From positions 1 to 6,419 of the forward strand of contig JBFLYA010000215.1 in the NCBI GenBank assembly GCA_040757115.1: DNA of 6,419 bases. Direction: 5' to 3'. Shown here one piece after another: positions 1,491 through 6,419 of this stretch (positions are counted from its first letter, which is position 1; each line of letters opens with the position of its first letter). Position numbers and translations under genes: made by a program. This stretch comes from a bacterium. Lineage in GTDB: Bacteria > UBA9089 > CG2-30-40-21 > SBAY01. Below the pieces are notes generated by a model. It saw nothing but the letters and a program-made list of their open reading frames with translations, did no database searches and was not told the DNA's origin.

Positions 1491-3551
1491 ATGAGTTTAA
1501 AAAAAATCAAGCATAAAGTCCTAAAGATAATCTTTGACGGTTATGGGTTTGACCCTGTAAAGGAAGAGAATATTTTAAAAACCGTCTGGAAAGAATTACC
1601 TGATGTTATAAAGCAAAAGTTTATCGAAGGATTAAACAAGGCATTTGGTAAAGAGATAGATATTGAACGGAATAAGGAAAATCTATTCTTACAAATATTT
1701 TCAAAGACATTTATTACTACACCACAATATCCTTCTCTAAAGAAATTAGATTATCATCTGGATAAACACCGTGCCCTGAATTTTAAAAAAGTTTTAAACG
1801 AGTTTAATTATAAGAGAAAGAATTATACTGAATTTATTGATGATTTAATAGGAGAAATTTCTAAAAAAGAGAACTATGTTATTTGGACAGTTAATACTCC
1901 ATTCATTTTTTCTCTCCGAAATGAATTCCCTTCTATTGTTACAAAAACAACTGGTAAAGAAATTGGTTATGAAGATTTATCTCCTGAGGTGCAGGGTAGC
2001 TCGGAAACAGGTCATCAACAATTGGGTAATTTAATAGTTGGGCTTCAGCCACCTTTTGAAGTAACAGCAGGAATTGAAGACGGCTCTTTTTTTGAAAATC
2101 CGGTGCTTCAAGAATGCCTGAATGGGGTCAAAGGTTATGAACGGAATCTTAATTTAACCTTTCTTTTGTCAGGAGAAAAAGGAGATGACGGCCGAGTTCA
2201 TAGCTGTTGGAATCACTTAGAAGCCTTTTTTAAAATGTTCTTTGAAAATTATGGTATTAGCCCTGATAAACTCAGAATGCAAGTAATCCTGGATGGACGA
2301 GATTCACCACCGTATTCTTCTATTAAAAATGAAAATGGGAAATATAATTTTATGAATAAATTGATAACACTATTGTCACAGTATAATGCGACAGAATCTA
2401 TTACCTGGATAATAGGTCGGGGAATCGGCATGGATAGAGATTATGATGAAATAAAAGGCAAGGCTGACTATGAATTGATGGTAAAAGGGAAAGGGACTAT
2501 TGTTAAAGATGTTTCAGAAGCACTTAAAGAGATAGAAAATTTACATAAAAATGGCTATATGGATTCGAATATCCCTCCTATAATTATTAGAGATAAGAAT
2601 GGAAGTATTAGAAAAATAGAAACAAATGATTATTTTTTAGACCTTAATTTTAGAGCAGATAGACAGCGGGCAAAAATAGCCTCACTCCTTGGGGCGAAGG
2701 AATTTTTGGTTAGGGAGTCTTCGATTAAAGGAAGGCAATGGAAGGTTGATTGGACAAAAGATGATTTAAAACTACAGGTTTATACTTTGACCGAATATCA
2801 CCCTGATTTTGAAAATAAGTATGGGGTAAAAATTTTGTTCCCATCAAAACCTTTTGAACATAATTACTTATCTATTTTAGCAAAGGCGAGTGAGGAACTC
2901 AATTTTAAATTTAATTATCTCTTGTTAGCTGAAAGCACTAAGGCTTTACATGTTGGTTTTTTCATTCGAGGGAAAAGAGAAAAAATTGAAATTCCAGAAC
3001 ATGAAACAAGAATAATAATTCCATCATACGGAGTTGAATTAGATATTAAAAATGATGACGATTATTTTAAGACACCTCAAATGAAGGCGTATTCTATTAT
3101 GGGAACTCTTTTAAATGAATTATATAGAGAAGACTTCGAGCTTGTAATTGTAAATTTTTCAAACTGTGATATGTTAGGGCATTTAATAGTAAATCATTTC
3201 ACCGCCTGTGTTAAAGCGGTGGAGGTTATGGAAGAAATATCAAAGATTATTATTCCTTTTGCATTAAAAATGGGCTATTATATAATATTGACCTCTGACC
3301 ATGGTTGCATTGATGATTCATCTCCAGGACATGGATTAAATGATATCCTGACAACCTTTATTTCACCTGATGACGATATAGATTTAACCGTGGATTATAA
3401 AGAAAAGGCTAAATTATTTGATATCCCCTGGTGTGTCCTGGAGATTATGGGTGTAAAGGAATTGATAAAACCTTTCATTCCTGATATTCCTATGACACTT
3501 AAAACAAGAGGGTTAATAGGTAAATCCCTGATTTCATTAAAACGGTACTAA
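1491..3551 (+). CDS. gpmI: Phosphoglycerate mutase, 2,3-bisphosphoglycerate-independent type, with enlarged N-terminal region
   Basis: This protein belongs to the alkaline phosphatase superfamily. Its iPGM members interconvert 3- and 2-phosphoglycerate in the cytoplasm using two Mn/Mg ions and a phosphoserine. All seven expected metal-site residues are visible: D16 (FDGYG), S171 (GSSETGH, 169-175, the nucleophile), D560 and H564 (NCDMLGH), D603 and H604 (TSDHG), and H614 (PGHGLN). Substrate-site blocks are also present: FFENP (200-204), GRVHS (234-238), DGRDSPP (268-274), GRGIGMDRD (309-317), NFRADR (386-391) and K484 in KALHVGFF. At 686 residues it is far longer than the usual roughly 510. 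About 100 extra, highly charged residues (roughly 25-130) lie between the first metal aspartate and the nucleophile motif, and there is smaller enlargement elsewhere. The ATG is preceded by only a weak GAGAG (1481-1485). Glycolytic mutase activity is the simplest reading, and a paralogue with another phospho-substrate cannot be excluded. Confidence 0.85.
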   Translation: MSLKKIKHKVLKIIFDGYGFDPVKEENILKTVWKELPDVIKQKFIEGLNKAFGKEIDIERNKENLFLQIFSKTFITTPQYPSLKKLDYHLDKHRALNFKKVLNEFNYKRKNYTEFIDDLIGEISKKENYVIWTVNTPFIFSLRNEFPSIVTKTTGKEIGYEDLSPEVQGSSETGHQQLGNLIVGLQPPFEVTAGIEDGSFFENPVLQECLNGVKGYERNLNLTFLLSGEKGDDGRVHSCWNHLEAFFKMFFENYGISPDKLRMQVILDGRDSPPYSSIKNENGKYNFMNKLITLLSQYNATESITWIIGRGIGMDRDYDEIKGKADYELMVKGKGTIVKDVSEALKEIENLHKNGYMDSNIPPIIIRDKNGSIRKIETNDYFLDLNFRADRQRAKIASLLGAKEFLVRESSIKGRQWKVDWTKDDLKLQVYTLTEYHPDFENKYGVKILFPSKPFEHNYLSILAKASEELNFKFNYLLLAESTKALHVGFFIRGKREKIEIPEHETRIIIPSYGVELDIKNDDDYFKTPQMKAYSIMGTLLNELYREDFELVIVNFSNCDMLGHLIVNHFTACVKAVEVMEEISKIIIPFALKMGYYIILTSDHGCIDDSSPGHGLNDILTTFISPDDDIDLTVDYKEKAKLFDIPWCVLEIMGVKELIKPFIPDIPMTLKTRGLIGKSLISLKRY

Positions 3552-3569: not shown

Positions 3570-3610
3570 GTAACTATTCACCGCAGAGACGCAGAGGAAC
3601 AGAGAAAAAA
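3570..3610 (+). repeat. Left terminal inverted repeat of the GxxExxY element
   Basis: This is the 41-bp left arm, pairing with 3821-3861 with three mismatches. It contains the ATTCACC heptamer (3576-3582) that is tandemly repeated near the left edge of the window, followed by GCAGAGACGCAGAGG (3583-3597). Confidence 0.85.
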
Positions 3611-3820
3611 GGATTTAAATTAGATTGTGGATACCGGATAGATCTTTTAGTTGAAGAAAAAGTTATCGTAGAATTAAAAGCAGTCGAGCAACTACTTCCG
3701 ATTCACGAAGCTCAACTTTTAACCTATCTAAAAATGATGAATAAAAGGATAGGTTTATTGATCAACTTTAATGTTTCTGTTCTAAGAGATGGAATTAAAC
3801 GTATAGCCAATAGATTTTAA
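3611..3820 (+). pseudogene. C-terminal remnant of a GxxExxY-family gene
   Basis: Sixty-nine codons run from the end of the left inverted repeat to a TAA at 3818-3820, which abuts the right inverted repeat. The translation contains GYRIDLLVEEKVIVELKAVE, then LLPIHEAQLLTYLKMMNKRI, then GLLINFNVSVLRDGIKRIAN. These are the diagnostic C-terminal blocks of the GxxExxY family, including the nuclease-like D..VE.K arrangement. The frame stays open leftwards to 3563 but has no start codon before the conserved core, and the family's first half is missing. The N-terminal block at 1-63 would supply part of it, though about 30 residues would still be absent between the two pieces. Confidence 0.85.
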
Positions 3821-3861
3821 TTTTTTCTCTGTGTCTCCGCGTCTCTGCGGTGAATAGTTAC
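3821..3861 (-). repeat. Right terminal inverted repeat of the GxxExxY element
   Basis: This is the 41-bp right arm, beginning with six T directly after the remnant's stop codon and ending GGTGAATAGTTAC (3849-3861). The last 13 bp recur exactly at 157-169. Confidence 0.85.
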
Positions 3862-4610: not shown

Positions 4611-4616
4611 CTCCTT
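4611..4616 (-). promoter_or_regulatory. Shine-Dalgarno of the kinase gene, overlapping the upstream stop codon
   Basis: On the minus strand the sequence reads TAAGGAG. The TAA (4617-4615) ends the co-polymerase gene, and AAGGAG (4616-4611) is a strong ribosome-binding site 11 bases before the kinase ATG at 4599-4597. This favours translational coupling of the two products. Confidence 0.85.
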
Positions 4617-6123
4617 ACTTTTTCATCGGGATTAGTCCTAATACAGGTAATTTTAAATACCCTTCTGCATCTTCAGGTGTTTTAAAAGAATGGTTAATGT
4701 ATTCAAGTATAAAGGCTAATGTAATTCCTACCATAATTGAGCATAGAGCACCAATAAGTAAATTTCGTGTTTTGGTTGGCTTTATTGGTAGTAATGGGAC
4801 CAATGCAGGTTCTATAATCCTGATATTTCCAATCTTTATTGCCTCAGAAATCATAGATTCTTGTTGCTTTTCTAGAAGGATATTATACATCTTTTCAGTG
4901 GATTCCACTTCACGGGTAAGCATGGCTAAGACCATCTCCTTTTCTGCTAAACCCTCAAGTTTTGATTTATATTCATTGATGGTTGTAATTAATGCGTTTC
5001 CTTTTGACTCTAAAGCATTTATCTCAGTTTCAAACATTATTATTTTTTCTTTTATATTTTCATGAATAGGATTTAATGTTGAAACCTCCTGACTAATAAC
5101 CTTTTCTACTTCACTCTTTATTCTTGCGGTAACCTCCTTAATCTCAGATTCTACTTCTCTAACCTTTGGATGGGTTTTACCATATTTTTTTAATAAAGTT
5201 GGTAACTTAATCTCTAAAGATGTCAATTCTGCCTTGAGGTCTTTAACGATAGGATTTTCACTAATAGTTGTCGAGGAGATTATTTTTTCATCCTGAAGTT
5301 TAAATTTCTCTTTTAAATTCCTGTAATTTTCATTTAATTCCTTTTTATTTGCCTGTAATTTATAATACTCTGCCTCAAAATTTGCGATGCTTGCTACTTT
5401 ACTTTGCACCTCAGTAGGTAGTGACATAATTCCTTCCTGCTCTTTAAATTGCTTAAGGTTATCTTCATACTTTTTTAATTTAGATTCCATAGTTTTTAAT
5501 TGTTCTGTAATGAAATAATACGCGTTTCTGGCTTCACTACTTTTAATATCAAGTGATTGGTCGATATAAACCTGAACTATGGTATTGGCAATTTTTGCGG
5601 ACATCTTAGCATTATGGTCTGTAACTCCGACCATGATAATATCTGTCGTTTTAATAGGAACAATTTGAACACTCTCTTTTACCTTATTTACAACTATTCG
5701 AAAATGCGAAAGTCCTTCTCCTCTATCTTTTTCAGGTAAAAGATGTCCTGGAATTATCTTTTTGATAGAAGATTTGATAGAATTGATACATTTTTCACTA
5801 AAGGTGGGGGTTATTCTTCTTTTATCCAAATTTAATCTTCTAACTGTTTCCTCAATTATCGGATTACTTTTTATTATTTCACTTTGTGTCTTCAGGACAT
5901 CACTTCCTCGTGCAAGTGATACTTCACTCAACTCTTCGGAAAATGGAACTTCCACACCTTTAGGTCCTTCTATTAAAACCTTTACGATTGACAGATAGGT
6001 TGGTCTTTGAAGATTATTTCCAATAATGACCATAATGATGGTGAATAGGAAGATAAGAATTATCATCCATTTCCTTTTATATAATATTTCGATGTAATTA
6101 ATACTACTGGTGTAGTGAATCAA
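4615..6123 (-). CDS. Wzz/GumC-family polysaccharide co-polymerase (chain-length determinant)
   Basis: This inner-membrane protein should set polymer length and, through its cytoplasmic tail, activate the adjacent kinase. It has a short cytoplasmic N-terminus and a first membrane helix at about 19-36 (MIILIFLFTIIMVIIG). A large periplasmic domain follows, with coiled-coil-prone, Lys/Glu-rich stretches at about 200-285 and 320-425. The proline-rich approach EPALVPLLPIKPTK (438-451) precedes the second membrane helix (about 454-475). The C-terminal tail TPEDAEGYLKLPVLGLIP (482-499) is typical of proteins that couple to BY-kinases. At 502 residues it is full length. The start is TTG (6123-6121), supported by AGGAG six bases upstream. 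The next in-frame Met is residue 20, inside the first membrane helix, so the TTG is preferred. It is co-transcribed with the kinase. Confidence 0.9.
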   Translation of the reverse strand: MIHYTSSINYIEILYKRKWMIILIFLFTIIMVIIGNNLQRPTYLSIVKVLIEGPKGVEVPFSEELSEVSLARGSDVLKTQSEIIKSNPIIEETVRRLNLDKRRITPTFSEKCINSIKSSIKKIIPGHLLPEKDRGEGLSHFRIVVNKVKESVQIVPIKTTDIIMVGVTDHNAKMSAKIANTIVQVYIDQSLDIKSSEARNAYYFITEQLKTMESKLKKYEDNLKQFKEQEGIMSLPTEVQSKVASIANFEAEYYKLQANKKELNENYRNLKEKFKLQDEKIISSTTISENPIVKDLKAELTSLEIKLPTLLKKYGKTHPKVREVESEIKEVTARIKSEVEKVISQEVSTLNPIHENIKEKIIMFETEINALESKGNALITTINEYKSKLEGLAEKEMVLAMLTREVESTEKMYNILLEKQQESMISEAIKIGNIRIIEPALVPLLPIKPTKTRNLLIGALCSIMVGITLAFILEYINHSFKTPEDAEGYLKLPVLGLIPMKK

Positions 6124-6127
6124 TTTA

Positions 6128-6140
6128 TTCTCCTGAAAAT
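6128..6140. repeat. 13-bp direct repeat, left copy (flanks the insertion at 6141-6295)
   Basis: TTCTCCTGAAAAT here is identical to 6296-6308. The bases just outside differ on both sides. Exact short direct repeats bordering a repeat-rich segment look like a target-site duplication. This copy carries the working ribosome-binding site of the co-polymerase gene. Confidence 0.65.
6130..6134 (-). promoter_or_regulatory. Shine-Dalgarno that fixes the TTG start of the co-polymerase gene
   Basis: AGGAG on the minus strand ends 6 bases before TTG (6123-6121), an ideal spacing. It lies inside TTCTCCTGAAAAT (6128-6140), which recurs exactly at 6296-6308. Confidence 0.8.
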
Positions 6141-6295
6141 AGCGAATTAGTGAATTAGAGATTAGCGAATTAGTATAGTATCCACAGACTCGTATCCTCT
6201 GGTGTAGAACAGATATTCCCCCTTAATAAAGGGGGTTAGGGGGTTGTTCTTCCATTATTTTCATCCCCCTTTGTGAGTCGCAGACTCATGACCGT
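6141..6295. mobile_element. 155-bp repeat-rich insertion without coding capacity
   Basis: The segment lies between two exact 13-bp direct repeats. It contains TAGCGAATTAGT twice (6140-6151 and 6163-6174, the first sharing one base with the direct repeat). It also contains a C5/G5 hairpin (6218-6235), a further G5 run (6239-6243) and a C5 run (6265-6269). Two related 15-mers, CACAGACTCGTATCC (6183-6197) and CGCAGACTCATGACC (6279-6293), lie near its two sides in direct orientation. GAGTCGCAGACTC (6275-6287) can form a small hairpin. No transposase and no clear terminal inverted repeats are visible, so a non-autonomous or composite repeat is the best description. Confidence 0.55.
6218..6235. repeat. 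C5/G5 hairpin within the insertion
   Basis: CCCCCTT and AAGGGGG form a perfect 7-bp stem around a 4-base loop. Neither strand has a convincing U-tract after it, so I do not call it a terminator. The extra G5 at 6239-6243 and C5 at 6265-6269 offer alternative pairings. Confidence 0.6.
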
Positions 6296-6419
6296 TTCTC
6301 CTGAAAATGTTTGTAAGTTGTTGTAATTACTAATGTTTTGTAATAAAGATGAGAGATTTAAACTACCTTTTCTCTTAAAAACACACAATATTCCCTTCTT
6401 GCCATCGTCTCGAAAAAAA
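6236..6419 (-). CDS. Possible C-terminal tail of an upstream gene, running off the right edge
   Basis: A minus-strand frame is open from the window edge (first complete codon at 6418) through 60 codons to a TAA at 6238-6236. The product is not recognised; it includes GILCVFKRKGSLNLSS and then QTFSGE. The last 19 residues, TVMSLRLTKGDENNGRTTP, come from the inserted repeat. If the insertion and one 13-bp repeat are removed, the same frame would end QTFSGE-stop, with the stop codon one base before the co-polymerase TTG. That is the tight spacing expected inside an operon and is the main support for coding. Against it, the stretch is short, has no family match I can name, and another frame holds a short MARREYCVFL-like peptide. 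Confidence 0.35.
   Translation of the reverse strand, partial: FFRDDGKKGILCVFKRKGSLNLSSLLQNISNYNNLQTFSGETVMSLRLTKGDENNGRTTP
6296..6308. repeat. 13-bp direct repeat, right copy
   Basis: This is an exact copy of 6128-6140. On the minus strand it includes AGGAG (6302-6298) eight bases before an ATG (6289-6287). That ATG would encode only 17 codons, so the match is more likely a leftover of the duplicated site than a working start. Confidence 0.65.

Follow-up and report, generated by a model that had tools for sequence, protein, structure and literature searches.

How did a bacterial gene come to have two exact copies of its ribosome-binding region in its leader, and was an upstream gene altered in the process? 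We addressed this question in a 6,419-nucleotide contig (GenBank assembly GCA_040757115.1, contig JBFLYA010000215.1; here called the window) from a bacterium of the GTDB lineage UBA9089; CG2-30-40-21; SBAY01. Its right part encodes, on the minus strand, a Wzz/GNVR polysaccharide co-polymerase (4615-6123; PF02706 and PF13807, with a TIGR03007 match below the cut-off) that starts with TTG at 6123. Exact 13-bp copies of TTCTCCTGAAAAT (minus strand ATTTTCAGGAGAA) lie at 6128-6140 and 6296-6308, 168 bp from start to start and with 155 bp of non-coding DNA between them. Read 5' of the wzz-type gene on the minus strand, the order is ATTTTCAGGAGAA, 155 bp, ATTTTCAGGAGAA, and then TAAATTG, whose TTG is the start codon. 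The initial annotation described this repeat correctly and interpreted it as an insertion that had duplicated the ribosome site and rewritten the end of an upstream gene. We arrive at a partly different answer, which we hold to be reasonably probable: positions 6128-6308 are a single unit from a family of small, modular, non-autonomous mobile repeats that is specific to the genus and has Shine-Dalgarno sequences as its insertion sites; the unit has no coding content, and no upstream gene was rewritten by it.

The 181-bp stretch that includes both 13-mers recurs at dozens of places in its own genome with 83-98% identity, and the copies share fixed ends that correspond to window positions 6128 and 6308. 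Therefore, the 13-bp repeat is not a chance match. Another genome from the same genus (the congener) also carries many copies. The pattern ATTTTCAGGRGAA has 215 occurrences in the window's genome and 171 in the congener, against 0-7 in 17 further relatives, while the reversed pattern, used as a control, gave 0 matches in both congeneric genomes and 0-1 across the set. When 84,980 named species genomes were scanned for the head motif of the family, only 17 scattered single matches in unrelated taxa were obtained, which are taken as chance. Two viral contigs matched the motif, a search of phage and plasmid collections gave no match, and a scan of the named genomes for the Wzz protein found no relative.

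Cutting the copies at the 13-mer resolved them into modular head-to-tail arrays of short, non-coding, multicopy units of ~90-215 bp. Each unit follows the order AAACGNTCA-hairpin-CACAAA-N-GATGAAAAT-filler-ATTTTCAGG, in which the head consists of GAAACGNTCA, a hairpin bounded by TG and CA, and CAAANGANGATGAAAAT (in shorter form, GAAACGNTCA, hairpin, CACAAA..GATGAAAAT). Fillers are of several types and mostly palindromic. In the window, all parts lie on the minus strand: a 52-nt head module at 6257-6308, recognized from the module list and from hairpin covariation, comprises ATTTTCAGGAGAAACGGTCA, the hairpin TGAGTCTGCGACTCA (6274-6288), and CAAAGGGGGATGAAAAT; a filler of the CCCCCTAACCCCCTTTATTAAGGGGG ... 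CTAATTCGCT type occupies 6141-6256 and contains a terminator-like stem at 6218-6235; and the right-end 13-mer (6128-6140), made of the element end ATTTTCAGG plus AGAA, contains the AGGAG ribosome-binding site of the wzz-type gene.

To locate the insertion sites, we examined 41 heads without a preceding ATTTTCAGG, here called fresh left ends. AGGAG stands just before AAACG at these ends (A30 G34 G39 A34 G35), and nothing is conserved further upstream. ATTTTC is absent from them, and they abut native AGGAG, so the ATTTTC that heads array-internal units is the end of the preceding unit. For the same reason, the whole 13-mer was rejected as a duplicated target. In the left copy of the window (6296-6308), ATTTTC is accordingly most likely the 3' end of a preceding element and AGGAGAAA the part derived from the target.

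Comparison of sister loci in the two genomes defined the other end. The clean empty/occupied pair L216/L176 reads ACCTTGAGAAACACCC when empty and ACCTTGAGAAAC-GCTCATG...ATTTTCAGGAGAAACACCC when occupied. The right end is the same in the sister pairs L148/L115 and L150/L122, and the right junction of L189/L223 follows the same pattern. Right ends read ATTTTCAGG and then native AGA(A), and empty and occupied sites differ by units at AGGAG/GAGAAA. Therefore, ATTTTCAGG is the element's own 3' end, whereas AGA(A) comes from the target, and the junction of the two recreates AGGAGA. GAGAAA(C) flanks both sides in L176/L216, but the right AGG is element-borne, so a recombination core common to element and target would account for this no less well than a target site duplication. 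By sequence comparison, the location of the units is sequence-specific, ATTTTCAGG is carried by the element, and fillers turn over between sister genomes. The proposed duplication of a ribosome site at wzz thus holds in essence, with AGGAG on both sides of a mobile repeat, but the ATTTTC half of the 13-mer most likely came from the preceding element and not from the wzz leader.

Units share one orientation before genes. An open reading frame of at least 100 amino acids starts 1-18 nt downstream of 37 of the 63 array right ends with flanking sequence (both genomes, some orthologous loci counted twice), as against 5 of 63 in an offset control at 31-48 nt; plain AGGRGA sites stand before open reading frame starts in 13% of cases in a 790-kb sample. 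The target genes have unrelated functions. Insertion at a ribosome-binding site with a usable site kept is the rule for this repeat family genome-wide, and the wzz-type gene, which retains a usable AGGAG as had been proposed, conforms to it.

Could this distribution arise with no targeting at all? Units might enter loose purine-rich targets, part of the left AGGAG being element-borne, and selection might then leave mainly those insertions that keep a ribosome site. Such tolerance is how other small bacterial repeats have been explained, as parasites (PMC3049150), and 26 of the 63 array ends do lie away from gene starts; however, AGGAG precedes most fresh left ends, including those at sites away from start codons, and in L216/L176 the left variant TTGAG is native. 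We regard this account as possible but rather unlikely.

Several observations weigh against insertion of mobile units at Shine-Dalgarno sequences. Most of the 63 ends were fetched for their resemblance to the window's unit; in the 790-kb sample, which was unselected, an initial count under stricter rules placed 3 of 9 array ends at genes; and the start-codon association could partly reflect selection against other insertions and not targeting. Among the sister pairs, L110/L145 and L010/L140 do not give clean comparisons, and L122 carries an additional partial copy on its left side. At wzz, only the right junction of the unit is visible, the left one lying past the contig end, and the sister wzz leader differs from the window beyond the insert (AAGGAGAGACAAATTG versus CAGGAGAATAAATTG). 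Moreover, we found no transposase or recombinase linked to the units, and none of the 11 matches to Y1 transposases in the two genomes has a unit within the fetched flanks.

The head hairpin raises the question of whether the units are instead selected regulatory elements of leaders, that is, structured RNAs in 5' untranslated regions that spread mainly by recombination and are not mobile parasites. Across 45 distinct hairpins, 251 of 270 cells are paired, compared with a shuffle maximum of 202, and the hairpin sequence differs even before identical copies of one multicopy element. This pairing may be kept by selection on the folded strand or by palindrome correction at the DNA level, and both fit. 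The junction hairpin that had been predicted for the wzz transcript is real, but it is moderate and not strong (predicted RNA folding of the leader -55.7 kcal/mol, z -2.9). Although covariation, the common orientation before genes, and this folding would suit a leader regulator, Rfam covariance models gave no match to the window at gathering score, the fillers are mutually unrelated and are swapped between the sister genomes before the same orthologous gene, and units are present or absent at orthologous genes whose functions are unrelated. We therefore consider a regulatory origin improbable. As a separate observation, an element end, GTCTTATGGTGAAATGTCAAG..., follows a head hairpin at L020:1393-1490 and at at least 15 contig ends of G000, with identical bodies and different hairpins. 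The element behind the GTCTTATGGTG... end gave no identification, because at least 15 contigs stop ~116 nt into it.

What, then, lies upstream of the unit at wzz? Window positions 6309-6419 (minus strand), supposed to be the end of an upstream gene that had gained 19 residues, are instead the end of another multicopy mobile element, truncated by the contig end. This segment matches the start of contig C34 exactly and the ends of four congener contigs at ~82% (81-83%) identity, and copies of it occur at several contig ends in both genomes. Compared with a congener copy, its frame has 13 codons with non-synonymous and 5 with synonymous changes, spread 6/6/9 over the codon positions, which indicates a frame without coding constraint. 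Contig C18 of the window's genome has a copy with 83% identity, located ~230 bp downstream of a transposase frame fragment with the IS110-type domains PF01548 and PF02371. On the basis of this one copy, whose left end is lost, an IS110-type element most likely contributed 6309-6419 as its non-coding end.

The congener, 98.6% identical in the flank from the wzz start onward, has no unit or array at wzz, no joined frame, and no tight gene junction. A perfect sigma-70 promoter (TTGACA-N18-TATAAT, 12/12) lies ~20-30 nt before the AAGGAG of its wzz, and the next gene upstream is uppP (L077:2118-2936), which ends 327 nt away. These features speak against the tight operon that had been postulated. 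Neither uppP DNA nor a uppP junction was found in the window's genome (99.87% complete). In the window, a search of 6100-6419 found no promoter-like site and did find terminator-like stems. From this comparison, the unit at wzz probably cut the gene off from a sister-type promoter site or lengthened its leader. A relative without the joined frame and a non-coding upstream sequence, the two observations named in advance as speaking against the rewritten upstream gene, are both what we found.

These data also bear on whether a repeat-mediated misjoin during assembly placed the unit before wzz. Many contigs end ~110-125 nt past units or mobile-element ends, and the 111 nt past the unit also form the start of another contig; yet the junction of the unit with wzz lies inside its contig, and dozens of loci in two genomes that were assembled separately show this arrangement of unit and gene, which makes such an artifact very improbable. 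Least credible of all is a single insertion that made a 13-bp duplication at the ribosome site of wzz, broke up a tight operon, and extended the upstream gene: the 13-mer is exact and the arithmetic was reproduced (removal of one copy and the segment gives ...TCA GGA GAA TAA A TTG, a frame that closes one base before TTG), but ATTTTC is element-borne, the sister has its own promoter and no joined frame, and 6309-6419, which shows no coding constraint, is the end of a multicopy element.

How could units insert at Shine-Dalgarno sequences without destroying them? We propose that site-specific recombination or RNA-guided IS110-type transposition would act between the element junction ATTTTCAGG/RGAAACG and a target ..AGG/AGA (slashes mark the exchange point), leaving AGG on both sides. 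With AGG on both sides, the target gene would keep a working ribosome-binding site and further units could insert there, building arrays. At wzz, the unit adjoins the end of another mobile element. Candidate enzymes are an RNA-guided IS110-type transposase, with a mechanism as in PMC11187229, or another site-specific recombinase. In C18, an element end and then ATTTTCAGG follow the PF01548/PF02371 fragment, and among the copies no complete one with both ends was found. As to a guide RNA complementary to the target, a 10-nt match, CAGGAGAAAT, lies in the region downstream of the IS110-type transposase; it was picked after the fact, and 1% of shuffles reach 10 nt. Tentatively, the target might be the Shine-Dalgarno sequence itself, perhaps recognized through the guide RNA of an IS110-type transposase and regenerated by the element end, so that all translation start sites together would serve as a self-healing landing pad on which non-coding cassettes build up and are exchanged.

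The family is best classed as a variant of the small non-autonomous bacterial repeats, unusual in its Shine-Dalgarno target and self-restoring end. Compared by architecture as published, BOX elements of Streptococcus (boxA-boxB(n)-boxC; PMC3049150) are likewise small, modular, folded, dispersed, and non-coding, stand before genes, vary in the number of internal modules, and probably spread as parasites. However, the outer modules of BOX elements are fixed and terminal inverted repeats have been reported for them, whereas the units have interchangeable fillers and a Shine-Dalgarno target that their end rebuilds. The units showed no terminal inverted repeats: the left end AAACGNTCATG and the right end ATTTTCAGG are not inverted repeats of each other, and a unit end pairs only with TGAAAAT, a subterminal part of the head. 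Prokaryotic miniature inverted-repeat transposable elements, reviewed in PMC10969869, are also short, non-autonomous, multicopy, folding, and near genes; the units differ from them in that no terminal inverted repeats were found, and in their sequence-specific target and tandem array growth, and that review does not mention ribosome-binding sites as targets.

Repetitive extragenic palindromic (REP) sequences, with their REP-associated tyrosine transposases (RAYTs), resemble the units as high-copy extragenic palindromes in composite arrays (PMC2817692), but REPs alternate in orientation within bacterial interspersed mosaic elements, whereas the units run head-to-tail and are tied to AGGAG. Y1 transposase genes exist in these genomes but not beside units, and a RAYT origin was rejected on that ground. 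Insertion sequences of the IS1111/IS110 type use guide RNA (PMC11187229), and the IS110-type gene fragment described above adjoins the same kind of element end; the units, unlike these, carry no transposase, and the link is circumstantial. Integron cassette arrays are similar in outline (head-to-tail order, a folded site, turnover between sister genomes), but the units hold no genes and form many dispersed arrays; no attC core sequence was seen in them, although no search for attC sites or an integron integrase was made. Searches of the open-access literature yielded no account of repeats that insert into Shine-Dalgarno sequences and restore them.

The usual explanation for small bacterial repeats is that they land at any site where an insertion can be tolerated. 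A target motif combined with an element end that restores the ribosome site would explain the tolerance of many insertions right before start codons. If such targeting is active, whether RNA-guided or through a site-specific recombinase, it would be a naturally occurring means of addressing translation start sites. The units would also let leaders vary rapidly, since orthologous genes in genomes ~98% identical carry different fillers.

The window has further features of note. A 41-bp inverted repeat of the CGCAGAGACGCAGAGG type (3570-3861, 93% complementary) frames a 70-amino-acid C-terminal fragment of a GxxExxY protein (TIGR04256, E 7e-24). Direct and inverted AATTCAC/GTGAAT repeats at 73-166, 5' of a NeuC-type epimerase gene, belong to another dispersed palindromic repeat type. 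Finally, positions 1491-3551 encode a 686-amino-acid protein with phosphoglycerate mutase domains (iPGM_N and metalloenzyme), which is longer than the usual phosphoglycerate mutase and scores below NCBI's cut-off for the enzyme.
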